Origin: Ulva prolifera
Taxonomy: Eukaryota > Chlorophyta > Ulvophyceae > Ulvales > Ulvaceae
Assembly (NCBI GenBank): GCA_023078555.1
Contig: CM041196.1
Span: forward strand, 10,682,985 to 10,746,984
Length of the DNA: 64,000 bases
Direction of reading: 5' to 3'
Under the pieces are notes generated by a model that searched no databases, was not told the origin of the DNA, and saw only the letters and a program-made list of their open reading frames with translations. Below, in pieces: positions 30,028-61,800 of this stretch; the stretch's first letter is position 1; each line of letters begins with the position of its first letter. The translations under genes and the position numbers were made by a program.

Positions 30028-30154
30028 GATTGTGTGGGAAGCAGAGCTCCCCTGGTGCAAGCGTGTCGTAGCTGTGATAACGCGAGTGCAGCAGATCACA
30101 CGCATTTGGCTGTGAGTCTGCGGGCAGACCGTAGGTCGGCTGTCCAGAGCACAG

Positions 30155-30185
30155 AATATAGGACGTAGCTGTCAATTCCAGGTCA
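30155..30185 (+). promoter_or_regulatory. Predicted TATA box and transcription start of element C
   Basis: AATATAGG is followed 28 bases later by ATCTTTG. The start is supported because the terminal spliced copy at 35025 begins with exactly this A, as expected for a cDNA of the 5' RNA end. Confidence 0.65.
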
Positions 30186-30206
30186 TCTTTGACTGGCAAT
30201 TGACAG

Positions 30207-30287
30207 GTGAGAATGCTTTGCTGTTTGTGTGTGTCTGTCTACTGACTACAGCAGAGAACAGTGTGCTGAGCGTACTACGTGGTGCAG
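30207..30287 (+). other. Candidate intron in the 5' LTR of element C
   Basis: The donor is GACAG|GTGAGA and the acceptor GTGCAG|GAG. The copy at 35025-35102 lacks exactly these 81 bases. This is sequence evidence for splicing; no RNA was seen. Confidence 0.75.
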
Positions 30288-30343
30288 GAGTCTGTACTGT
30301 ATGACTAGTGATCATAGCAGCTAACAGAGCTCATATTGCCACA

Positions 30344-30517
30344 GGTTATGGGTCCATCGGCGTGAGAAGACTGCGCACGCACCCGTCATCGAGCCGTCAC
30401 TGGTCGATGATCTCTGAGCCGTGATTGGTCAGGGAAAAGCCAACACAGGACGTAACTGTCTGTGGAACAATCGCAGGACGTAATTGTCTGTGGATTTGGT
30501 GACTCAATTTGGTTACC
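30344..30517 (+). promoter_or_regulatory. Element C primer site and leader
   Basis: The leader begins GGTTATGGGTCC. From knowledge of Drosophila copia, GGTTATGGG pairs with the anticodon side of a cleaved initiator-Met tRNA (CCCATAACC), so a half-tRNA primer is likely. The leader also has a near-repeat, CAGGACGTAA(C/T)TGTCTGTGGA, at about 30455 and 30475, and ends in a strong start context, ACCATGG. Confidence 0.65.
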
Positions 30518-33500
30518 ATGGCTGACGGGATATCGACGAAAGTCGAGGTGCTAACACGCGAAGGAAACTTCCGTCACTGGTTCGGGCAAATGGAGTCAAT
30601 CTTGGTCCTGAAAAATCTGGACGACGTGCTGTATGAGGAACCAGGACAAGCAGCTGATGAAGCTGAACAAGCAGCCGTGGAGGCTGCGCTCACCCGTGAT
30701 AGGAAGGTGAGGGCATACCTGAAGATGCACACTAAGGGTGCATTACAGGCCATCGTGACGCGTGCGCGGACTGCGAAGGCAGCATGGGATGCGCTGCACG
30801 ATGACTACAGAGGAGGACTAGCTGTCCGAAGGCCGCAGATGCTGCGTAAGGCGACTGAGCTGCAGCAAGGCGACGACTCTGTACAGCGGTACATAGACCG
30901 TGTGAAGGAAATCAGAGATGATTTCGTAGAGGCAGACATGGAGACATCAATGCCAGTGTTGACCAACCAGTTTGTGAAGGGGCTCAGGCCCGCCCTGGCG
31001 AATGTTGTGGGAGTACAACTGGGGGTGGCGATGAGTCAAGGCGCGGGTCTGGACCAGCTGTGTAATCAGCTGAGGGACCTGGCGGCGATCCTGCCCGACA
31101 GGGGTGCAGCTGCGCGAGCGGCTGCAGCAGTGGCGAAGAGGGAGCGGAACAAGGCTCGCGGGCCACTGAAGTGCCAATACTGCGGCAAGGAGGGGCACAA
31201 ACATTTTGAGTGCACCAAGAAGCAGAACGATATGGCTGCTGGCAAGAAGCTGCAGTGGGCCAGCCGGAGGGATGGCGGCGGTGAGGGCAGCAAGGAGGGT
31301 GCAGGTCGCGCGCTGTGCGTCAGGACCGCGCGCGTGGCCATGGCGACGGTGAAGGTTCCGTCAGACCGATCGAACTATGTGAACTTCGACACAGGGGCGA
31401 CGCATAATTACGTTTCAGACCTCAGTATGCTTCATGACAAGCGTTCCACGCCAGTGGAGGTCGTGAAGATGGGAGGAAATGAAGAGCACGTGGTGGCCTG
31501 TGCGGGCACAGTGGTGCTCAGCGCTCCTGGCGGGCAGGTGAAGCTGCTGGAGGCTCTGTGCGTGCCCACCATGCATATGAACCTGATGTCTGGCGCTTAC
31601 GTGACGGACCAGGGGGGGTCATATCACGGGAAGGGAAAGACGCTGGAGGTGAAGGACGCTGATGACACAGTGCTGCTGAGGGGTACCAAGCAAGATGGCC
31701 TGTACCTCATGGACTGTCAGGTGATTCCCACAGACGTGCCGTTGCCGACTGCTTTTGCAAACGTGGCAGTGGATGCTGAGGTGTGGCACAGAAGGTTCGG
31801 GCATGTCGGGATGGACAATCTCTACAAGGTGGAGAAGGCGGCAGATGGCATGGGCCGGGTGAACTGGCCGGAGAAGCATGCGCCGTTGTGTGAGATCTGT
31901 CCAAGAGCCAAGCAGTGCGAGGAGCACTATGCACGGTCTTCGTCCAGGGCTGAGAAGCCAATGGAGCTGGTCCACAGTGATGTGATGGGACCGTTTCCCG
32001 TTGCGGGGTTCCGTGATGAGCGGTATGCAGTCACGCTCCTGGACGACTACAGCAGCTACGCAGAAGTGATTTGTGTGAAGAACAAGTCGGATATGGCGCC
32101 AGCGGTGATTGAACGGCTAACCGAATGGGAGCGGCAGACAGAGCACAAGCTGAAGGTGCTGCGTACTGACCATGGTACAGAGTACATGGGTGCGCTGAAA
32201 CAGTGGTGCCGGCGGAACGGGGTGGTGCGGCAACTGAGCGCGCCACGCACGCCGAAGCAGAACGGGCGAGCAGAGCGGTACAACAGGACAGTGCTGGAGC
32301 GCATGCGAGCAATGCTGCTCGACGCGATGATGCTAAAGTGTTTCTGGACTTTTGGTCTGGACACTGCGGCGTACACGCGCAACAGAATTCCTGTCAAGGG
32401 ACAGGTGGTGACGCCATATGAGAAGTTCTGGGGGGTGCGCCCGGACATCTCGCATCTGCGAGTGTTCGGCTGCAAAGCGACGCTGTTCGTGCCATCGAAG
32501 CTGAGGGACAAGCTGGACGCAGTCAGCGAGGAGGTCATCTTCGTGGGCTACGCGAGGCACTCGAAGGCATACAGGCTGGTGCAGCACGTGAACGGCGAGT
32601 TCAAGCTGAAGGAGAGTGCGAACGTGTCCTTCCAGGAGGACAGAGTCATGCCAGCAATGGAGACATGCGCGTCGGCGAGCCAGGAGGCAGCGTCGGTGTA
32701 TCATGATCTCATGCTGGACGTTCCAGAGCAGCAGCCAGAAGAGGACGATGCAATGCTGGATGACGAGTCTGTGGCGTGGTCGCTGAATGACGACGCAGAG
32801 GACCCAGATGAAGACTGGGTGAATGAGGCAGATGATGCCTACGCGGCCATGGAGGCTGAGGACGCAGATGCTGATGATGACGGCAGCGATTCGGACCTGG
32901 ACGCAGAGCCGGGGGGTGCGCCAGATGCGGAAGCCGGGGGTGAGGACCAGGCTGCGCCGGGCCGCTACCCGCAGCGTGTGAGGCATGCGCCGAATCTGCC
33001 GTATCAAGCACATTTGTTTATGGCAAAGGGTGAGCAGCCGGCGGAGGAATTGCTGGTGCCGCCCCGGTCGTACAAAGAGGCGATGAAAAGGCCAGATGCT
33101 GCTGAGTGGGAGCAAGCGAAGAACGACGAGTATGCGTCGATTCTGGCCAAGGGGGTATTTGAAGTGTGTGAATTACCTCCAGGAGAGAGAGCACTGCCGG
33201 CGAAGGGCGTGTGCGACCTGAAGTTTGATGCCAAGGGCAACCTGGAGCGGTACAAATATCGTTTGGTGGTGCTGTGGAATCTTCAGGGGAAGGATGATGT
33301 GGGAGAAGTGTTTGCGCCCACAGCGCAGAGTGCAACATTCAGGATGATGCTAGCTATGAAGGCAGCTAGTCCGCGGCTGAAGCTCCGGCAGGTGGACGTG
33401 AAGTGTGCATTCCTTCACAGCGACCTTTACGAGGTGGTGTATGTCCGCCTACCTGAGGAGTTCGGTGGAGGAGTCTGGAAGCTTCGCAAGGCGCTGTACG

Positions 33501-34675
33501 GACTGAAGCAGGCTCCGAGAGCCTGGAATGAAACTCTCACCAAGGCGATGATGTCAGAAGGATTCACGGTGTCAGAGAATGACCCATGCTTGTTCATCAG
33601 AGGTGAAGGCAGGAGCAAGTCATATGTGCTGGTGCATGTAGATGATTCTGCGATCCTTGCAGAAGAAGGTGAAGAGATGAAGATTCTGGAGATGCTGGGC
33701 AAGCATTTTGAAGTGAAGGATCTGGGACCGCTGCATTTCTTTCTGGGGCAAGAAGTTGAAGAAGTGGCTGGAGAAGGTCTGCTATTGAAGCAGCCTCAGT
33801 ATGCCAAGAATGTGCTACAGAGGGCCAACATGTGGGATTGCAAGCCGAAGGCGACTCCGATGGAGACCAGGCACATGATGACGAAGACCACAGGAGTGGA
33901 GCTGAAGGATGATGACCCAAGGAAGGCGGCGTACGGAGAGACAGTGGGTGCATTGCTGTACCTGTCCACTCATACGAGACCAGATCTGGCGTATCCAGTG
34001 GGCGTGCTGAGTCGATTCATGGCAAAGCCGACGGATGTGCATTTCCAGGCAATGAAGAGAGTTCTGAGGTACTTGAGAGGTACATGGAATCATGGGCTGA
34101 TGTTCAGACTCGACCCAGAAGACAAGATGAAAGGGGTGAAGACCTTCACAGAAGCAGACTTCAAGGAGCTCGGGGTAATCAGAGATGAGGCATTGAAGCT
34201 GTATTCTGATGCAGATCTGGCTGGGGATCTCGACAATCGAAAGAGTACATCAGGTATGATGTTGATGATGCATGGGTGCCCAGTGATGTGGAGTGCCAAG
34301 TTGCAGACAGTGGTGGCCACGTCCACCGCAGAGGCTGAGTATATGTCAGCAGCCATGGCAGTGAAAGAAGCACTGTGGATGAGGAAGTTGCTGGGTGATA
34401 TCTATGGTCGTGTTGAGCGGATGACTGTTTATTGTGACAATCAGAGTGCTTTGCATCTGATGAAGCAGAGGACTGCTGGTGCTCCAGGAAGGAGCAAGCA
34501 CATTGACATCCAGTATCACTTCATTAGGAACAGATTTATGCGACAGGAGATTGATGTCCAGTTTGTGCCGACAGCTGAGCAGAAGGCTGATATGCTGACC
34601 AAGGCTTTGGCTGATCCAGCGCTAGGAAAGGCAGTGGCTGGTTTTCTGGTTGAATCTCCAAGCGACAGCGCTTGA
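30518..34675 (+). CDS. Element C Gag-Pol polyprotein (about 1385 aa, intact)
   Basis: The ATG at 30518 in ACCATGG context opens one frame to 34675. Gag has the UBN2-like FRHWFGQMESILVLKNLDDV and a CCHC knuckle, CQYCGKEGHKHFEC (about residue 225). The protease site is NFDTGATHNYVSD (about 291). Integrase has the HHCC domain VWHRRFGHVGMDNL with CEICPRAKQ, and the triad in ELVHSDVMGPFP, VLRTDHGTEYMG and KQNGRAERYNR. After an acidic linker RT shows VDVKCAFLHSDLYEVVYVRL, ALYGLKQAPRAWN and YVLVHVDDSAIL (HVDD in place of YVDD). RNase H shows LYSDADLAGDLDNRKSTSG, STAEAEYMSAAMAVKEALW and YCDNQSALHL. No stop or frameshift is seen. With near-identical LTRs this is probably an autonomous, recently active element that copies itself through cytoplasmic particles, as copia elements do. 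Confidence 0.96.
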   Translation: MADGISTKVEVLTREGNFRHWFGQMESILVLKNLDDVLYEEPGQAADEAEQAAVEAALTRDRKVRAYLKMHTKGALQAIVTRARTAKAAWDALHDDYRGGLAVRRPQMLRKATELQQGDDSVQRYIDRVKEIRDDFVEADMETSMPVLTNQFVKGLRPALANVVGVQLGVAMSQGAGLDQLCNQLRDLAAILPDRGAAARAAAAVAKRERNKARGPLKCQYCGKEGHKHFECTKKQNDMAAGKKLQWASRRDGGGEGSKEGAGRALCVRTARVAMATVKVPSDRSNYVNFDTGATHNYVSDLSMLHDKRSTPVEVVKMGGNEEHVVACAGTVVLSAPGGQVKLLEALCVPTMHMNLMSGAYVTDQGGSYHGKGKTLEVKDADDTVLLRGTKQDGLYLMDCQVIPTDVPLPTAFANVAVDAEVWHRRFGHVGMDNLYKVEKAADGMGRVNWPEKHAPLCEICPRAKQCEEHYARSSSRAEKPMELVHSDVMGPFPVAGFRDERYAVTLLDDYSSYAEVICVKNKSDMAPAVIERLTEWERQTEHKLKVLRTDHGTEYMGALKQWCRRNGVVRQLSAPRTPKQNGRAERYNRTVLERMRAMLLDAMMLKCFWTFGLDTAAYTRNRIPVKGQVVTPYEKFWGVRPDISHLRVFGCKATLFVPSKLRDKLDAVSEEVIFVGYARHSKAYRLVQHVNGEFKLKESANVSFQEDRVMPAMETCASASQEAASVYHDLMLDVPEQQPEEDDAMLDDESVAWSLNDDAEDPDEDWVNEADDAYAAMEAEDADADDDGSDSDLDAEPGGAPDAEAGGEDQAAPGRYPQRVRHAPNLPYQAHLFMAKGEQPAEELLVPPRSYKEAMKRPDAAEWEQAKNDEYASILAKGVFEVCELPPGERALPAKGVCDLKFDAKGNLERYKYRLVVLWNLQGKDDVGEVFAPTAQSATFRMMLAMKAASPRLKLRQVDVKCAFLHSDLYEVVYVRLPEEFGGGVWKLRKALYGLKQAPRAWNETLTKAMMSEGFTVSENDPCLFIRGEGRSKSYVLVHVDDSAILAEEGEEMKILEMLGKHFEVKDLGPLHFFLGQEVEEVAGEGLLLKQPQYAKNVLQRANMWDCKPKATPMETRHMMTKTTGVELKDDDPRKAAYGETVGALLYLSTHTRPDLAYPVGVLSRFMAKPTDVHFQAMKRVLRYLRGTWNHGLMFRLDPEDKMKGVKTFTEADFKELGVIRDEALKLYSDADLAGDLDNRKSTSGMMLMMHGCPVMWSAKLQTVVATSTAEAEYMSAAMAVKEALWMRKLLGDIYGRVERMTVYCDNQSALHLMKQRTAGAPGRSKHIDIQYHFIRNRFMRQEIDVQFVPTAEQKADMLTKALADPALGKAVAGFLVESPSDSA

Positions 34676-34682
34676 GGGGGTG
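34674..34682 (+). promoter_or_regulatory. Polypurine tract of element C
   Basis: GAGGGGGTG overlaps the stop codon and touches the 3' LTR. It is the expected plus-strand primer. Confidence 0.6.
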
Positions 34683-34993
34683 TGTGGGAAGCAGAGCTCC
34701 CCTGGTGCAAGCGTGTCGTAGCTGTGATAACGCGAGTGCAGCAGATCACATGCATTTGGCTGTGAGTCTGCGGGCAGACCGTAGGTCGGCTGTCCAGAGC
34801 ACAGAATATAGGACGTAGCTGTCAATTCCAGGTCATCTTTGACTGGCAATTGACAGGTGAGAATGCTTTGCTGTTTGTGTGTGTCTGTCTACTGACTACA
34901 GCAGAGAACAGTGTGCTGAGCGTACTACGTGGTGCAGGAGTCTGTACTGTATGACTAGTGATCATAGCAGCTAACAGAGCTCATATTGCCACA
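34683..34993 (+). repeat. 3' LTR of element C (intron-retaining core)
   Basis: 311 bp, identical to the 5' LTR except one T/C at the CACATGCAT/CACACGCAT site. It contains the same TATA, start site (34835) and GT-AG interval (34857-34937). Confidence 0.95.
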
Positions 34994-35102
34994 GGTGAGA
35001 CACACGGCATAGTTATTCTGTAAGATCTTTGACTGGCAATTGACAGGAGTCTGTACTGTATGACTAGTGATCATAGCAGCTAACAGAGCTCATATTGCCA
35101 CA
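34994..35102 (+). repeat. Spacer and spliced R-U5 copy at the 3' end of element C
   Basis: A 31-nt spacer, 34994-35024, starts GGTGAGACACACGG. It is followed by 78 nt, 35025-35102, that equal the LTR bases 34835-34856 joined to 34938-34993. The 81-nt GT-AG interval is cleanly missing and the rest is identical. The copy starts at the predicted transcription start and ends at the LTR end next to the primer site. That is the extent expected for minus-strand strong-stop cDNA of a spliced RNA. It lies inside the target duplication, so it was part of the inserted DNA. Confidence 0.9.
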
Positions 35103-35107
35103 GATTG

Positions 35108-36258: not shown

Positions 36259-36630
36259 ATAGCTGTGGCAGCACAGAGCTCTCTGGGCTTTGCGTGCTGC
36301 GTGAATAAGTCATGTTGTTTTGATATAGTCAACCGAGAGGTGCAGTAGCTAGCTGTTGCTGCGGCTGCACCCTACTAATTGTGTGTTCTGAGTCCACAGT
36401 GAGTGCTGCATGCACCTGTGAGAGAGTGATAAAGACTGAGGGAAACCAGTCATGTACGCATGCTGAGCTGCGGCATGGCATGACGCGTATGTGTAGTGAC
36501 CTGAGAGTCCCACACACCATGGTATAGTATGGTGTGCTGGTGGATCGGAGATCCTGGAGGATTTGAGCTGCACAGAGCAGACCACTTGTGTGTTTGTGTG
36601 GTGTGTGTGTGAGAGTGTGCTGGTGAAAGG

Positions 36631-36662
36631 TATAAATGTCACTGTGCATTCTGTAGCAGACA
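36631..36662 (+). promoter_or_regulatory. Predicted TATA box and transcription start of LTR E
   Basis: TATAAATG at 36631 is followed 31 bases later by ATCTTGTC at 36662. The terminal copy at 36880 begins at exactly the same A, supporting it as the RNA 5' end. Confidence 0.7.
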
Positions 36663-36687
36663 TCTTGTCTGAACAGAAGATGCACAG

Positions 36688-36793
36688 GTATGTACCTCCA
36701 GCCACTATAGCTCAGATTATGTTTTGAAGTGCTAAGTCTTGTTGTGTGTGAACACTGTGGGAAGCAAGTTTGCTCAGAGAGCATTCACTGCAG
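36688..36793 (+). other. Candidate intron in LTR E
   Basis: The donor is GCACAG|GTATGT and the acceptor CACTGCAG|GTG, with 106 nt between. The terminal copy joins 36662-36687 to the homologue of 36794-36855 with nothing in between. Confidence 0.78.
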
Positions 36794-36879
36794 GTGTTCT
36801 GTGTGTATTGAACAGAGGTATCAATAGCAAGACAGATCACCATTTGATTACCACAGGTGAGACAAACTTAGCACATGTA

Positions 36880-36967
36880 ATCTTGTCTGAACAGAAGATG
36901 CACAGGTGTTCTGTGTGTATTGAACAGAGGTGTCAATAGCAAGACATATCACCACTTGATTACCACA
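36880..36967 (+). repeat. Spliced R-U5 copy at the end of LTR E
   Basis: 88 nt = 26 + 62, equal to the two flanks of the 106-nt interval. The first 26 bases are identical to the core and the last 62 differ at three positions, so this copy is older than that in C. Confidence 0.9.
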
Positions 36968-36972
36968 ATAGC

Positions 36973-37138: not shown

Positions 37139-37566
37139 GAGTGTTGCAGTACAGTGTGAAGCTGGTACATGCATGAGAATGATAAGGTTGGACAGCGTGT
37201 GTTGAAACCAGGAGTGTCAGGAGAATCCCAAGCATGGCTTAATAGGAGACTGCTATGAGGGAGCTAGAAGCTAGCATATCAAAAGGGGGATGTACGCATG
37301 GTTGTTGTACACGTGCTCGATGCGATCTCTGAGATGGAGGGATTCATAGAGCGGGAGCGTTTGTTGTGCTGCACATATGCAGAGCTTATATGTCTGTGTG
37401 CTTGACTGTTATAAGCCTTGTGTTGAATCCAATAGGACATCTTGTCTATTGGAGTTGAACACAGGTTTGGTGTCCTCTAGCTGACATGCATGGCTGTGTC
37501 TTTGTTTTGTGCTTGTGGACACATTGTCAAGACGCGTGTTAGTCTCATCGAGTGTGCACAGGGGTT
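37139..37566 (+). repeat. Putative 3' LTR of element B
   Basis: Starts TGTTGCAGTACAG right after the polypurine tract. It contains a TATA-like CTTATATG near 37383 and ACATCTTGTCTATTG near 37436, similar to the start region of E. CACAG|GTTTGG and GTGCACAG|GGG near 37462 and 37560 could again be splice sites, which is weaker evidence than in C and E. It shows no clear match to the presumed 5' LTR. Confidence 0.4.
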
Positions 37567-37618
37567 AATGCGCGTGACTGAGCTGGTAAGCATGCTGACT
37601 GTGCATGATGACGTGGAG

Positions 37619-37674
37619 GGGAGCGTACCTTGCCGCCGCCGCGACTTTACGCGGCGGCGGCAAGGTACGCTCCC
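37619..37674. repeat. Perfect 24-bp inverted repeat with 8-nt loop
   Basis: Left arm 37619-37642 (GGGAGCGTACCTTGCC...) is exactly complementary to right arm 37651-37674; the loop is GACTTTAC. Directly after it CGCGACTTTACGCG repeats the loop with a short stem. It is GC-rich and should form a very stable hairpin in DNA or RNA. Confidence 0.95.
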
Positions 37675-37689
37675 GCGCGACTTTACGCG

Positions 37690-37765
37690 GTAGAAATAAA
37701 AGTAAGAATTAAACCGGTGACCTCATGAGTACACACTACATGCTCTACCACTGGGGCTCACATGA
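37690..37765 (-). ncRNA. tRNA-like or SINE-like fragment
   Basis: On the minus strand AGCCCCAGTGGTAGAGCATG resembles a Pol III A box with D-arm. GGTTTAATTC, 31 bases further, resembles a B box at the spacing found in tRNA genes, and CTTTTATTT follows as a possible terminator. The D and T stems do not pair properly, so this is not a working tRNA gene. A tRNA-derived SINE head or tRNA pseudogene is the best guess. Confidence 0.4.
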
Positions 37766-37789
37766 AGCGACGAGTCCTATGTTAGATGT

Positions 37790-37953
37790 CTCCTCCCTTG
37801 ATTATGTCATCTATATTTTTGGATCCCCAGATATGGATATCCCACAACACACATAGTCTGCTGAGTTGGTATAACTCAGCACGTTGAATGCAGGCTGCAT
37901 GAATCTGTGAGCACTCTAGATGGAGACCCTTACACCAGCTGTCTTCTTTCACA
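37790..37953 (+). repeat. Putative 5' LTR end of copia element D
   Basis: The boundary at 37953 (TTTCACA) is set by the primer site that follows. A TATA-like GGTATAACTC lies near 37870. The left end (TGTTAGATG) is a guess, and the start of the 3' LTR (42456) is not similar. Confidence 0.35.
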
Positions 37954-37981: not shown

Positions 37982-39112
37982 ATGGAAGATACTAACAATC
38001 TACAAACTATTTTCGATGGAAAGGAGACGTCAAAGCAACACTGTCATACCATGGACTCTAGGCGGCAGTTGAGGAAAATGAGGAATTCCAGGCACTGACA
38101 CCCGGACAACGAGCAACAATGACCACGAAAGCTCTTGCGATAATGACGTTGAACATTTCATCTGAACTGAGATCACACATCGACGCCATGCAAACTGCCA
38201 AGGAGGCTTGGGAATTCTATGCTGCGATGTTCACAAAAGCAACACTTGGAGCAAAACTCAAACTTAAGGATGACCTCAGGACCATCAAAAGACAAAAGGG
38301 AGAAGATGCGCTTGCCTTCGTCGGCAGAGCCACAGAATTGAAACAAAGATTAAAGGGAGGGTGCAACATCACAGTGGATGACGATGAATTCATACATACA
38401 ATAATGAAAGGTCTCGGGCTAGCGTACGCGTCATTTGTCAGTCACATGGAATTTGAATTGGCAGACATGAAACTACCGGCATTCATGGCAAAGCTGCAAA
38501 GCGCCACACCACAGCTGGATCGAGACGACAGCAGAGCGTTCTTGGCTGAGAACAACAAAGATGAAAAGCCGCCGGGAAAACGATTCTCAGGGATATGTTT
38601 TAATTGCGGCAGGCGTGGTCACATAGCTCGATTCTGCAGAGACAAGAAACAAAACCAGAGACCAGACACACCAGAGGACGGACATTGTCACTTAGCATTC
38701 ACTGCAACGATGGAGACTGATAACGAAGGCAGATACACCATTGACAACTTCAACACAGCCGGAGTGATCGCAAACAGTGCACACATGTTGGCAAACGTAC
38801 AGAACATTGATCAGCCAAGACACATAGAAACGCTCAGACAATTGATTGCCATCGCCCAGCGGAATACAGACATTGATGCGGACGACATGTTATCAATATA
38901 TCTGTCAACATCTAGAGCAAATTTGTCAACGGACGTGCAAAACGAGATGATGCAGGAGGGTCTCATGTATCCTGTGACGATTCTTACAGAGGAACCAACA
39001 GAACAACAATACATTGTCTATAACTCGTGTTGTGAACAAGCTGACATGCTAGACAGAATTCACAACTCAGGATTGAAGACGTTTTTTGACTCAGGATCAG
39101 ATACTCACAAAC
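37982..39112 (+). pseudogene. Copia element D gag and start of protease
   Basis: The probable start is the ATG at 37982 (MEDTNNLQTIFDGK); a frame change and stop near 38055 separate it from the main frame, open from before 38119. Gag shows AKEAWEFYAAMFTKATLGAK and a CCHC knuckle, CFNCGRRGHIARFC, near 38600. The protease motif FFDSGSDTH at 39083-39109 is followed by a frame change to ILTNVKTGDH. The bases at the switch are GATACTCACAAACG. Loss of one unit of an 8-base direct repeat (ATACTCAC) would explain both the shift and the missing residues; this is inference. Confidence 0.85.
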
Positions 39113-41084
39113 GTGAAGACAGGAGATCATGTAAGGTCATACAAGGAATTCAGCAATGACCACATACCAACATACGTGAGGATGGGAGGGGGTGAGCGTC
39201 ACAGGGCAGAGGGATTAGTTACTTTCGTCATAAATTTATCATCTGGTGACACCCTCACCATCAATGACGCATTGTACATACCGACAGCGGTGGCCACATT
39301 GATATCAATGAGCAAGGCAGCCCAACAGATTTCTGGTGAGATAGCGTTCACAGAAGGCACAGTCATTGCTACGCCACATGGAGGTAAAGAAAGAAAGATT
39401 GGAGTAAGGCACAAAGGTCTGCACGTGCCAGATGTGAAAGGACTGCATTATTCGCACAAGAAGCAAGTGTCATGGGCAGACCAGCAACCGCAAGCTCTCG
39501 TGGCAGTGACAGAATTGATACATAAACGTCTAGGTCACCCATCACATCAAGTGATGCAACACATGCAACAACATGGATGCGTGATGGGCCTTCCAGACAA
39601 ACTAAGACCACCAGACATGACTTGTGAAATATGCATGCGAGCCAAACAGGCAAGACCAAAATTTGGGGACTCTCTGTCAATCACGGAAAAGCCTCTGGAA
39701 TTGGTACACGCTGACGCAATGGGACCGTTTCCGATACAAAGTTTTGGTTGTTCCAAATATGTGCTTGTTATGATCGATGATTACTCCAGATTCATGGGAG
39801 TATCTTGTGTGGAAACAAAAGCAGATATACCCCTGGAACTCAAGCGCATTCTCAAGCAATGGCAAACACAGACTGGATTCAATGTCAAACAAATCAGGAC
39901 AGACCAAGGATCAGAATTTTGCAACAAAAAGGTACAGCAATTCTGCGAATCACATGGAATACAACACCAACAGAGTGCAGTGTACACCCCGCAACAAAAT
40001 GGAAAAGTGGAACGTGGAAACAGATCACTGATGAACATCGCACGTGCACTACTGATGGAGCTGAATGTACCGGATATCATGTGGGACGAGGGAGTAATGA
40101 CAGGCGTGAGATTGCACAATTGTGTGACACACATAAGAAGAACGAAGACAGCTTTCCAAATGTTCTACAACAAGAAACCGAATCTATCAACTCTAAGAGT
40201 ATTTGGATGCAAATCATTCATTCAGGTGCATGCTCACAACCGCAACAAACTATCGGACCGTTCGATAATTGGGACATTCGTAGGTTACTCATCAAAATCA
40301 AAGGTATGGAGAGTACTAATACGGTCAGATGACAGCCACAAAATCGTTGAATCCCGAGACGTCATATTTGATGAAAGCCAGCCCGGACCATTCATCTCTG
40401 ATACACAATATCAGGAACCAGTTTATGATCTGTGGAACAATTTGTTGTGGAACACGGGGAGTGATATCGATGTCCAACAACAATTGGAAGGAGAGCAGCA
40501 ACAAGCGAACATGCATATGCCAGCTCATAACGCAGTACCCGCACCAGCTGAACTAGATGTACCAGAATTGGCCCATCAAGGACACACACCAGCCGAACTA
40601 GATGTACCAGAATTGGCACATGAAGGCCATCAAATGGAACAGCTTCAACATTATGAAAATGCAGTACATGAAATGCCAGAAGTAGACGCAGCCCCAATAG
40701 CAGCCGAGGCTGAACTCCAAAATAATGATAATGCTGAACACGACATGCCAGAGCTAGAGGCAGCGTCCACCGCATCAGACACCGAAATCCAGGATCCGGA
40801 TGAAGTAGACATGGAAGCAGGGCAAGAAATTGAAGGTGTTGTACACCATCAGAGACCGACCAGAAATAGAGGGCCACCAGCAAGATTTGCAGATTTCAGG
40901 GCACATCAGGTTCAATTGACTGATACGCCACAGCCATTGGTTGAAGTCCAAGGTAGGATTGACTTTCCTCAATGGCAAGAAGCAATGAACACAGAGTTCG
41001 CGTTCCTGAACGCCAACAACACTTACACTGAGGTGGACCTGCCTCCCAACGTGACACCTATACCCACAAAATGGTATACAAAAT
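39086..41084 (+). CDS. Element D protease end, integrase and linker
   Basis: A long frame (to 41218, but out of register after about 41075). The integrase zinc domain is HKRLGHPSHQVMQHMQQHG with CEICMRAKQ near 39600-39660. The triad is ELVHADAMGPFP, KQIRTDQGSEF and QQNGKVERGNR. LRVFGCKSFIQVHAHNRNKL follows. The linker carries a doubled unit, PAELDVPELAH(Q/E)GH, near 40545-40635, and many acidic and His residues. IDFPQWQEAMNTEFAFLNAN is the RT start. A missing base at TGGTATAC near 41075 shifts the frame away from VYKIKRDEQG. Confidence 0.85.
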
Positions 41085-42447
41085 CAAACGAGACGAACAG
41101 GGAAGAATCGAAAAATGCCGCGCACGAATCGTTGTTAAGGGATATGTCCAGAAAGCAGGAATCGATTACACAGAAGTTTATGCTCCAGTGGGCAAGTACA
41201 CCACGGCCAGGTATATGATGTCAGAAGTGGTACAACATGACCTGGAACTAATTCAATTAGACGTTGCAGCAGCATATATGCACATCTCTCTGGAGGAGGA
41301 TGTATACATCAAATTACCTGGTCAACTAAGGGATGGAAAAGCATGCAAATTAAACAAGGCTCTATATGGTCTGAAGCAATCAGGCAGAGCCTGGTTCAAA
41401 CACCTCAAGAAGATATTGATGGATCTTGGCTTAATAATTACCCATGCCGATGAGAGCTTATATATATTCAAATCTACAGATGCTGGAAATGACACATACA
41501 TACTTGTGTACGTGGATGACCTACTCTTAGCAGGTCACCGTGACATCATAAACTGGATCACAACAGAGCTGAAAAAGAAATTGCAAATCGTTGAAAAGGG
41601 AGATGCGAAATATTTCCTGGGAATGGAAATAATCCGAGACAGACAGGCTGGAACATTATGGATTGGTCAATCGCAAGGCGCAAAGGATCTGCTCGAGAAA
41701 CTTGGCCTCAAGAACGCTAAAGGTAGAAAGACTCCCATGGATTGCAATTTATCGCTACAGAAGTACGACGGAACTGCAACGCCTGACAACCTAACGCAAT
41801 ATCAGAGCATGATTGGCAGCCTACTGTATCTAGCAAATTGCACCAGACCAGACTTGGCACAACCAGTGAGAATGCTAGCACAATTTATGTCAAACCCATC
41901 AGATGATCGCATGTCAGCCGCAAAACAAGTACTGAGGTACCTAGCAGGTACCACCACATTAGGGATAATCTACAAAAAATCGGACCCAGAACCAATTATG
42001 GGTTACTGTGATGCTGATTATGCTGGTGACATGGACAAGAGAAAATCCACGTTTGGTTACGTGTTCGTTAGATCTGGGGGAGCAGTATCATGGAATTCAA
42101 AATTACAATCAACAGTGGCCATGTCAACGTGTGAATCAGAATTTATGTCGGCTGCGCATGCAGCAAAGGAGGCGCGTTGGTTGAGAGACCTCAAGGGAGA
42201 GCTATCCGGCAGAGTTCAACCAGTGACTATCATGGGGGATAATCAGGGAGCACTGAAAGAACCAAGCACATAGATGTTGCGCACAGATTTGTCCAAGACA
42301 GGGCAGAACGGGGGGAGATAATATGCGACTACATATCTACAGACCAAATAGTAGCAGACTGTCTCAGGCTGTCCCACTACAAAAACTATTGGAAAGCAGA
42401 AGAGATATGGGCATGCAATGTCGACCTGTTTGACAGAGCTGTCTTCC
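41071..42447 (+). pseudogene. Element D reverse transcriptase-RNase H
   Basis: Open from 41071 to 42273: MVYKIKRDEQGRIEKCRARI, VYAPVGKYTTARYMMSEVVQ, ALYGLKQSGRAW and the catalytic ILVYVDDLLLAG. SMIGSLLYLANCTRPDLAQP follows, then RNase H with MGYCDADYAGDMDKRKSTFG, STCESEFMSAAHAAKEARWL and IMGDNQGALK. Just after GALK a deletion removes about ten residues and shifts the frame. RTKHIDVAHRFVQDRAERGE continues in the next frame to about 42447. With one small deletion before RT, one in protease and one here, D is dead but well preserved. Confidence 0.88.
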
Positions 42448-58868: not shown

Positions 58869-61800
58869 TCATGATTCCGGAAGCGAGCTCTGTCGCATAT
58901 CACCCCGGGAACCCGAGTCCACCGCAAACGTCCCGAGCCCGCTACTATCTGACTGCAACTCGCTAGACTCCTCCACCGTTCCCAGATCCACAGGCGACCC
59001 AGCACTGTGGCCATGACCTCTATCGAACCATGTGCGCCCCTGTAACCACACACTGCTCCCCTGTGTGCGAAGATCTGTCTCGTCTAGAACATCGGCACGC
59101 ACATAGTCAACGCCACCAGAACCATCATGCATGTGGCCGCCCTCACCCGGTGCCGGCCGCAGCCATCGCGAGAATCCGGTGATGAGCAGCGGCGACATCA
59201 TTGTCACTGCGCCGACAACGAGCCACAAAATTGGGTCACACGTGCCACCATCGCCGGCGGCAGCGTCGAGCTTTGGGGCAGGAACATCAGTCGTCGATTG
59301 AGGCGCCACTGCCGCAGCCGTAGCAGCCTTTGAACTACCATCGCACACGTCTGCTCCCGCACCGCAGCCATCACCGACGAGAGGGCAGAAATGGTCAAGC
59401 AGATACCCTGATAGCAAACCCGTTGGGAGCTTCGCGAGGAAAAGCGGCGCGGCAGCGATAGCGCCAAACAGACCTTCCTTCCCCGTCGGTGCGATGTCCA
59501 TGGTATAATCATACCATCGCGGTGACCACACTGCCTCGCCAAGTGAAAGCTGTACAACAAACACAACAGGGCCCATGATGGCCGGATACTGGATCCAATG
59601 CACCCAAAATGGTGAGCTCGCAGACACGTAGGACCCGTAATGGACCATATCGAAGTGAGGAATGCGGGCAGTGAGGGCGGTGACGAGGGGCACGAGGATG
59701 ATGATCATAGCTGGGTTTATTGCGTAAACCTTGCCGAAGGGCGCGCCGCAGCCAATGAAGCGTTGCATGTACTTGGGCAGCATGCCGTCAAGGTACCTAC
59801 GCAACGGCATGCGGTTCAGAGAAGGCGGCACATGAGAGAAATATCTCAGTTGATTATTGAACGCCTCTGAAAACTATGGCACATTGGCAACAGAGCGAAG
59901 GACCCGTGGGAAGGAAAGGGCTTTTGGCGGATTTTGATGGAATGCTACACACTCGGCAAGCGCTCAAAGTATGCAATGTTCCATGACCGCATCTGTGATT
60001 GAGATACACTCCAGCCCACCCAAACCGATTTCTGAGATGCAGAAGCATAGCTCGTTCAACTCTAGCGCACTCAATCACCATCACAAGACATTTGCGCAAG
60101 AAGTAGAGATTCATGATTTTCGATTTGGAGAACGTCTGTTTGCGCACGTCGATTGTCACTGTTTATTGTGTGAACCGAGTCAGACATGGCTGCACTACGA
60201 TGAGCACCGACGGCGATGGTCAATAGAGGCATGCGTATGCGCATGCGTATGCGCAAGGGATGTACTAGAGTGAGCGAGCGCACCGGTACGTTTGCCGAAG
60301 GTTGAGTAGAAACAACGCCATGACGAGGTACTTCCACATGCCCGGGTACGCCATCATCTCCGAAATGCTGTTGTTCAACCGCTGCACCGCCGCAAGTACA
60401 CCTCTCATCAGCGCAGCCGGGCCACAGCCCCAGCCGCGGTGCCGCGCTGCGGGGCTGCAGAGGTCCCTACAGCCACACAGTACTTGTGGTCGGCGTCGCG
60501 CGAGTCCACGTTCAGCTGGCACGCAGCCCCAGCTTGGCAACACGGCACAAGTGTGAAAGATGGGTGGCTGCGGGGTGGCCAGACGGTGTCCAGCTGTGGG
60601 GCGGAAGCCTTGGCCGCGGCAGCTGGCATCTCAGGCAGGAGGAGGACGCTCGTATGGGCTGCGGGTCGATCTCAGGAGCGCGCATGAGGCCCCCGTGTGT
60701 GGAGCGGCCAGGCTGATGGACATGCATGCACTGTTCAGTCGGTGCGGTGACGGTGACACCCCTCAGAGGCACATGCTGACAACTGTGACGGGGCACATGC
60801 CACTGCACCTGAAACTCAAGAGAAAGCTCGGCATAACATGGGCAGACAATAGATACACAGCAGGGCCATCCCCGCAATGACGGGCAGACAATAGACACAC
60901 TGCAGGGCAGACAATAGACACACTGCAGGGCAGACAATAGACACACTGCAGGGCCATCCTCACAACGACGGGCACTCTGGCACGTAACACGAGCCATGAC
61001 AGCATCAGGGCCATCCTCACAACGCCGCATGCCATGCGGACCGTCAGGCCGCCTTCAAGGCCGACATGGCCACCGCCGTGCAGCGAGTTCGTCGCAGAGT
61101 GGTCAAGGTGGGGACAGCTCCAACTGCGCCAACGCGTGCTGTTGATGGTGGCATGTGTGCATGCATGGGCAGATGCGTACGGGACGTTGACGCCGGCCGT
61201 CTGACTGTGCAGCTCATGCCGGATGAGCTGCCCGGCGTGCGCCGGCACCTCGAAGAGGCCGCCCTCCTCCCCATCCCATCCATCGACGCGCCCCCCGGCC
61301 CCCCGCGCCTCCGCGCACTCCCGCTCCAGCGCCTCTGCCTCGACCGCACGGCTCAGGAACAGCGCGACGCCAAACGCGACCGCAGACGTCAGCGCGCCCG
61401 ACGCGACGACGAGGCGGTTGCTGTCATGCATGAGCATCCCGGCCGTGCCGCCGCGGCTCGCGTCCGCGGGGGCCGTGCAGACGAAGGCGCGGAGGCCGTC
61501 GACGACAAACCCGGACGCGAGCGCGGCGACGTTCATGACGGTGTAGAAGAGTCCGTACGCGAGGGAGCGGGAGGAGGCGGGGGTGTAGCGCTTGACGGCG
61601 ATCGTCATGACGGGCACGCCAAGGGACGCGGCGGCCGGGAGGAGGGTGTAGAGGAGGATATAGAGGAAGGTCTTGGAGGTCGCGGTGGAGATGAGCAGCC
61701 GTGCCACGAGCTCGCCGGCGAAGCAGAGCAGGAGCGACTGCCGGATGCCTGTGTGACCGACTCGGTGTTGGGGACGCGGAGGGTGGGCTGGTGTGGATCA

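Follow-up and report, generated by a model that had tools for sequence, protein, structure and literature searches.

Copia elements of Ulva prolifera carry an intron-bearing and an intron-less R-U5 in the same LTR, which suggests that RNA splicing is part of how they copy themselves

The window analysed here, a 64,000-nucleotide stretch of contig CM041196.1 of Ulva prolifera, contains a copia retrotransposon (element C, family F1) and, downstream of it, LTRs related to two further families, F2 and F3. Element C encodes gag-pol in one open frame with matches to gag (residues 21-141), pre-integrase (390-462), integrase (475-575) and RVT_2 (876-1112), and over 45% of the query its pol protein shares 70% identity with one labelled jgi/Ulvmu1, which we take to be from Ulva mutabilis. 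The parts of the element are as follows.

30028..30032, + strand: left target-site duplication, GATTG
30033..30343, + strand: 5′ LTR, short form (U3-R1-intron-U5), without the 109-nt spacer and spliced copy
30344..30358, + strand: primer binding site, 14 of 15 positions complementary to the anticodon-loop side of initiator tRNA-Met (half-tRNA type)
30509..34675, + strand: gag-pol, one open frame of 1388 aa, copia order gag - pre-integrase - integrase - RT
34674..34680, + strand: polypurine tract GAGGGGG
34683..35102, + strand: 3′ LTR, full 420-bp form, TGTG...CACA
34683..34834, + strand: U3
34805..34812, + strand: TATA box AATATAGG; TATA begins at 34807, 28 nt ahead of R1
34835..34856, + strand: R1 (exon 1a), predicted transcription start, GTGAG donor at its end
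34857..34937, + strand: GT-AG intron of 81 nt (donor D1, acceptor A1; GTGAG...GTGCAG)
34938..34993, + strand: exon 2a, first U5 copy, 56 nt
34994..35024, + strand: spacer, 31 nt, with a donor-like start CACAG/GTGAGA (D2, GT at 34995-34996) and the end TGTAAG
35019..35023, + strand: TGTAA, the only one in the LTR
35025..35046, + strand: R2 (exon 1b), intron-less copy of R1, left border 35024/35025
35047..35102, + strand: exon 2b, functional U5, which adjoins the primer binding site in long 5′ LTRs
35103..35107, + strand: right target-site duplication, GATTG

The integrase precedes the reverse transcriptase in a single gag-pol, a tRNA primer site lies beside the 5′ LTR and a polypurine tract lies ahead of the 3′ LTR. 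TG...CA LTRs with 5-bp target duplications were found in all nine two-LTR F1 elements that we assembled, and CTTGAGGGGGTG likewise precedes the 3′ LTR in the other eight. By their domains, LTR ends, duplications and half-tRNA primer, these are Ty1/copia elements. A canonical LTR, however, has one R-U5 copy; the full F1 LTR has two, and short forms with one copy do exist.

As a preliminary description of this locus had stated, 35025-35102 reproduces 34835-34856 (22 nt) joined to 34938-34993 (56 nt) base for base. The missing 81 nt are the GT-AG interval 34857-34937, with no further difference between the copies; the 31-nt spacer (34994-35024) separates the first U5 copy from the intron-less copy, and the latter lies inside the GATTG duplication (30028-30032 and 35103-35107). 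That description took the tail for a spliced strong-stop cDNA joined to the 3′ end of this one copy before integration. An intron-less copy that originated as a reverse-transcribed spliced leader is still the best reading, but the tail is neither outside the 3′ LTR nor confined to one copy. With 34681-35107 as the query, the 88.9-Mb genome to which the window belongs yielded at least 40 places (the best 40 of 90 candidates, one being the query itself), and 34 of these best 40 span at least 420 of the 427 query bases. The whole of 34683-35102, spacer and intron-less copy included, is the normal 420-bp LTR of the family. Allowing up to 3 mismatches, a 29-mer of the intron form matched 60 places genome-wide and one of the spliced form 53, whereas the reversed spliced 29-mer matched none. 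Forty intron-form and spliced-form places pair at a spacing of 189-206 nt, 36 of them at exactly 190 nt; among the unpaired ones (20 intron-form, 13 spliced-form) are short LTRs, fragments and tails that have been truncated or mutated.

From the retrieved loci, nine two-LTR F1 elements were assembled by strand, spacing and identical 5-bp flanks. Seven carry the long form at both ends, and two, the window copy and a pair on C7 (L059/L016), combine a short 5′ with a long 3′ LTR. The long form also occurs as solo LTRs with matching target-site flanks (L010, L011, L014, L019, L022, L025, L027, L058 and L069), and solo LTRs of the short form comprise one young (L060) and three older copies (L032, L041 and L043). 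With at least 40 F1 places and the long form at both ends elsewhere, a one-off tail was rejected; full-length copies without a tail throughout are not the pattern of this genome, and the odd feature of the window copy is its short 5′ LTR. The LTRs of an element are spaced by about 4.7 kb, except in L037/L024, which has a 1.4-kb insertion in the 5′ LTR at the joint of intron and exon 2a, and in L005/L004, which lie 32 kb apart and were counted as one element, with presumed later insertions, because of their identical flanks and LTRs. Substitutions between paired LTRs number 0, 0, 0, 0, 0, 1, 1 and 6 in the eight aligned pairs, L037/L024 being left out because of its insertion. Both short/long pairs show exactly 109 gap columns, that is, the spacer and the spliced copy; in the window, 30033-30343 differs from 34683-34993 by 1 substitution and the final 109 nt of the 3′ LTR are absent. 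From the few substitutions and the exact gap it follows that the 5′ LTR was shortened during or close to insertion, and template switching between the two identical U5 copies would most simply account for it. In one element (L012/L013, G000:C7:341999-347179), the two LTRs have different haplotypes, with 6 differing sites of which 4 fall in the spacer and at the R2 border; this looks as if two packaged RNAs had recombined.

Searched with the RNaseH end of the ORF, the genome yielded at least 150 places (the best 150 of 592 candidates). Below the F1 copies, matches of 57-60% identity represent the families F2 (L110-L118, LTR of 546 bp) and F3 (L119, LTR of 704 bp). BLASTN similarity among the LTRs of F1, F2 and F3 does not exceed 21 nt, and all three have the same layout of TATA, R1, GT-AG intron, U5 copy, spacer, R2 and a second U5 at the LTR end. 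The TATA precedes R1 by 28 (F1), 29 (F2) and 31 nt (F3), and the introns measure 81, 99 and 106 nt, respectively, and differ in sequence. In F2 and F3, R1 has 26 nt, the U5 copies have 60 and 62 nt, and the spacers of 31 and 24 nt start with GGTATAC or GGTGAGACA after CACA. First and second R-U5 copies are identical in the four LTRs compared from the three families. TGTAA lies 1 nt before the start of R2 in F1 and across it in F2 and F3, and the F2 LTR has two TATAs, one 29 nt before R1 and one in the spacer 29 nt before R2. All three families preserve the donor-like site that follows the first U5 copy (CACAG/GTGAGA in F1 and F3, CACAG/GTATAC in F2); splicing from D2 to the acceptor of R2 would delete TGTAA and R2. 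Between F1 and F3 LTRs, conservation is highest at the joint of U5 and spacer (21 nt, 90%), which was the only resemblance found when we looked for the origin of the spacer. One F2 element has two identical 546-bp LTRs and GGCGG flanks, and the F2 primer site is a 30-nt match to the 5′ half of initiator tRNA-Met (tRNA genes in L083, L086 and L087). One F3 element has CCCTG flanks and a 5′ LTR known over 518 of its 704 bases. Genome-wide, there are 69 R1 and 65 R2 matches for F2, 59 of them paired, and 12 R1 and 8 R2 matches for F3. Since the compound LTR recurs in three families of differing sequence, it has the look of a functioning design rather than of an accident. The window itself holds the following relatives.

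36264..36967, + strand: F3 solo LTR of the same layout, ATAGC flanks (36259-36263 and 36968-36972)
36631, + strand: its TATA
36662..36687, + strand: its R1
36688..36793, + strand: its intron, 106 nt
36794..36855, + strand: its exon 2a
36856..36879, + strand: its spacer
36880..36905, + strand: its R2
36906..36967, + strand: its exon 2b
37198..37953, + strand: F2-like 5′ LTR, short form, with an insertion in the intron at about 37529-37848 (about 320 nt)

The F3 solo LTR lies 1.2 kb from the tail of element C and has 3 differences in 62 positions between its two U5 copies. Next to the F2-like LTR is the half-tRNA primer site GGTTATGGGC, and downstream of it lies a broken copia element with a gag match in the ORF 38119-39159 and an RT match in the ORF 41071-42273. 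Six sister places of lower identity (L120-L125, 38-50%) showed no double R in the 900 nt past the RNaseH match, an absence that is provisional because each is represented by one copy and by these 900 nt only. TGTAA lies 25-27 nt past the TATA, near the expected start, in L123-L125 and 48-62 nt past it in two others; L120 has no TATA. The copia 3′ end at L125 (G000:C6:6065458-6066357) has a 20-nt direct repeat and several serial CAG/GT sites, possibly another form of LTR intron duplication.

The earlier proposal that the interval acts as an intron of an LTR-initiated transcript is well in line with these three families and their differing introns, and two further kinds of observation point the same way. 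In one F2 element, precisely the 99-nt intron is missing from the 5′ LTR and present in the 3′ LTR, with 0 substitutions between the two and CATGT on both sides. This LTR (L132) was the single genome match to an F2 pattern of U3 and spliced junction (up to 3 mismatches); in it, R1 is spliced to the first U5 copy, and the spacer and R2 are retained. Splicing confined to the 5′ LTR of this element is most simply traced to a packaged RNA whose 5′ leader had been spliced. Moreover, two F1 LTRs (L035 and L042), 16 of 230 positions apart and both in truncated elements without another LTR, consist of U3-R-U5 with no intron and no tail. Recombination between two R copies could also produce these two forms, and a deletion between CAGG micro-repeats could also produce the 99-nt loss in F2; such repeats at the intron edges would allow a DNA deletion in any single case, but not plausibly in all. 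The second kind of observation is variability: among 28 F1 LTRs of exactly 420 bp (other lengths out, LTR pairs and duplicated copies in), 14 of 81 intron columns vary, compared with 3 of 78 in exons 1a and 2a (Fisher P 0.009), and R1 is the least variable part of the LTR with 0 of 22 variable columns. The sequences thus argue strongly for the layout and for its origin by splicing, and traces in DNA predict a spliced leader with the join 34856/34938 or 34856/35047.

We propose that the compound LTR supports a splicing-dependent replication cycle, a model that, as a whole, we consider somewhat more probable than its negation. Its core, namely that splicing of the 5′ leader is a built-in step by which the intron-less R-U5 is remade in each cycle while the LTR intron survives, seems to us evenly balanced. 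The LTR comprises a U3 with TATA, R1, the intron, a U5 copy, a spacer with a putative UGUAA signal, R2 and U5, and its R2-U5 corresponds to R1-intron-U5 after splicing. Where transcription starts, where the RNA is polyadenylated, which splice is used and that strong-stop DNA lands on R2 are predictions of the model. Transcription would start at R1 of the 5′ LTR, as placed by the TATA (the one at 34807 is the sole TATA of the F1 LTR), and the leader would be spliced within the LTR from R1 to the second U5 copy, over 190 nt in F1. Cleavage of the RNA about 12-14 nt into R2 of the 3′ LTR would leave R1 at its 5′ end and a partial R2 at its 3′ end. In Ulva linza, where 66.7% of 54 analysed 3′ ends contain it, UGUAA is the main poly(A) motif; it is also the top pentamer in the studied chlorophytes except Pyramimonas, with a peak near -17 from the cleavage site (PMC1868727). 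From this peak and the single TGTAA at 35019, cleavage is predicted about 12 nt into R2 in F1, and the same arithmetic predicts about 14 nt in F2 and F3. Minus-strand strong-stop DNA, primed by half initiator tRNA-Met, would then copy the spliced leader, U5 followed by R (78 nt in F1), pair with R2 at the 3′ end of the RNA, and be extended through the spacer, the first U5 copy, the intron, R1 and U3, so that the 420-bp LTR would be restored. By landing on R2 and extending through the intron copy, each cycle would keep the intron and remake its intron-less neighbour. Placed ahead of the poly(A) signal, the R1 donor would also help to prevent premature polyadenylation in the 5′ LTR, as in foamy viruses, and the tail-less short LTRs would be by-products of template switching between the two U5 copies.

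Changes at the left border of R2 are expected under the proposed cycle, because the cDNA end would land there. On a tree of 30 F1 LTRs built without the two border columns, this border (35024/35025) changed 8 times, the highest count among 419 adjacent pairs (P ~5e-4 for two random columns), compared with 0 changes at the R1 border. The tree left out L002, L004, L007, L008, L015 and L028 as identical partners or duplicates and kept L012/L013, L026/L030 and L027/L036, each pair of which is probably one insertion; with 25 young LTRs only, the R2 border has 6 changes, tied with two overlapping U3 pairs. No change was seen at the R2 border of F2 (65 matches) or F3 (8 matches), where the border falls inside TGTAA; the F2 copies are nearly identical. 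Past the first base of R2, each variant is confined to one insertion (L014 or the pair L004/L005). First and second copies are identical in 19 of the 28 LTRs, and in L029 a private A-to-G change occurs at equivalent places of the two U5 copies (34957 and 35066), as would result from copying between them. Among five old F1 relatives, the U5 copies are 84% alike in L048 (versus 77 and 64% to the main family), 80% in L063 (versus 64 and 73) and 87% in L031 (versus 79 and 68); L047 (91%, versus 91 and 86) and L069 (83%, versus 95 and 96) show no sign of U5 copies evolving together. An F2 element on C7 with conflicting R1 and R2 was considered as evidence against the remaking of R2. This was ruled out: the element and its flanks occur twice in opposite orientation (G000:C7:934k and 6382k), and the two places are segmental duplicates with identical flanks and so represent one insertion.

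Two LTRs fit the proposed cycle poorly. In L132, the captured leader runs from R1 into the first U5 copy, with the spacer and R2 still in place; the cycle needs a different splice, which this RNA at least did not have. A cDNA of such an RNA landing on R2 would lengthen the tail, and no double tail was present in the match positions of 53 F1 and 65 F2 places; the splice from R1 to the second U5 copy is itself a prediction. L133, an old F2-like LTR, has a spacer followed by an R with intron, as an unspliced RNA would yield.

A serious rival to this cycle, in our view a less probable one, is a canonical cycle with a long R and rare splicing. Transcription would start at R1 and end in R2, R would comprise about 200 nt including the intron, and the genomic RNA would normally be unspliced; the compound LTR would be inherited by in-register strand transfer with the intron-less copy as an old, now passive spliced cDNA, and spliced leaders would be reverse-transcribed only rarely. 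Such a cycle needs no special choice of splice, and it agrees with the rarity of F2 LTRs spliced at R1 (1 match versus 69 R1 matches) and with the long form at both ends of most two-LTR elements. However, it predicts mutations at the R1 border, and among the 30 LTRs that border has no change and the R2 border eight. Alone, it also leaves unexplained why R1 and R2 and the U5 copies are identical in three families whose LTRs otherwise differ, as well as the likeness of the U5 copies in L048, L063 and L031, which L047 and L069 lack. Quite unlikely, in our judgement, is a true start at R2, with a short canonical R-U5 and an upstream R1-intron-U5 that serves as a separate promoter unit for spliced mRNA, comparable to BARE, or is a relic. 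TGTAA directly before (1 nt, F1) or across (F2, F3) the start of R2 would suit such a start, as would the place of TGTAA near the expected start in three of the six sister places (L123-L125) and the fact that the R2 border is the changed one. In F2, the spacer TATA 29 nt before R2 makes a start at R2 possible; in the F1 and F3 LTRs read, no TATA occurs within 50 nt upstream of R2, whereas a TATA 28-31 nt before R1 is common to the three families. Moreover, the F2 5′ LTR with spliced R1-U5-spacer-R2 implies an RNA begun at or before R1, and R1 is the part without variable columns (0 of 22).

A tandem duplication of the LTR end followed by deletion between CAGG micro-repeats could draw on the CAGG that borders the interval on either side in F1, F2 and F3, but it would have to remove exact GT-AG intervals of 81, 99 and 106 nt in three families, repeat the exact removal in one F2 and two F1 LTRs, and place the copies such that they begin 28-31 nt after the TATA and finish at the LTR end; we consider it very unlikely. 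A singular event in the window copy or an assembly error, to which the tail-less 5′ LTR of this copy might point, is scarcely credible with dozens of copies in three families on many contigs, and the number of copies and families speaks against the assembly error that the preliminary description had named as a possible objection.

The arrangement of donor, poly(A) signal and R length in F1 is strikingly similar to that of prototype foamy virus, in which a donor inside R lies upstream of the poly(A) signal, with an R of 193 nt and the signal at +168 (Schrom et al. 2013, PMC3694450); the corresponding F1 positions are +22 for the end of exon 1, +185 for the start of TGTAA and about +200 for the expected cleavage. 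The foamy virus, as described in the relevant parts of PMC3694450, has one R per LTR and is a retrovirus, not a copia element, whereas the F1 LTR also contains the acceptors and has a second R-U5 that lacks the intron. From the similar layout, a foamy-like control, with U1 on the R donor suppressing polyadenylation in the 5′ LTR, is a candidate for F1. In RSV, MMTV and HTLV-1, the poly(A) signal lies in U3 (PMC3694450) and, as in L123-L125, just ahead of an R edge, which is also its position at R2; these viruses and L123-L125 differ from the compound LTRs in that they start at that same R (in L123-L125 as predicted from the TATA only). In F1-F3 the poly(A) signal would be transcribed in the 5′ LTR, because the start appears to lie one R copy upstream. 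Neither in Drosophila copia nor in Ty5 is an LTR intron or a second R-U5 known to us. F1 and F2 resemble both in their priming, since Drosophila copia uses a half-tRNA and yeast Ty5 an initiator tRNA-Met cut within the anticodon loop (PMC5371799). Other copia elements also have splicing or more than one class of RNA: barley BARE has two TATA boxes for two RNA pools, and in Arabidopsis EVADE splicing removes the protease domain, with no second R-U5 copy mentioned in the pertinent passages of the source (PMC12786077). Among the papers listed by our searches of the open-access literature, none showed an LTR retrotransposon that combines R-U5 copies with and without an intron inside a single LTR.

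Replication via RNA normally erases introns. An LTR that retains an intron and stores the spliced product alongside would, if the model is true, be a natural solution to this erasure. It would also be a further answer, besides that of foamy viruses, to the problem of how identical LTRs can polyadenylate at one end only. The comparison of these families suggests that RNA splicing may be built into how these copia elements copy themselves, and the start, splice and poly(A) sites are predicted closely enough for direct testing with Ulva RNA.

Several further observations were made in this genome. In L034, L040, L050, L055 and L065, which lie on C1, C2, C6 and C9, an F1-like tail halts just past R2 and is followed by a common GC-rich sequence (...GCGGCGCACCACTCC...); these are amplified copies of a chimera whose 3′ end differs. 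L033 and L051, near-identical copies on C1 and C6, contain pieces of U5, spacer and R2 beside long TGTC-rich arrays. Six peptide patterns gave no match to viral contigs, and four contig ends showed no telomere repeat in the 180 bases at each edge. Finally, in keeping with an ulvophyte host close to Ulva, the window encodes on the minus strand (58872-59831) a protein whose longer relatives carry a transporter domain and which is 64% identical to an Ulvmu1 protein and 46-48% identical to proteins of Ostreobium, Bryopsis and Trebouxia.
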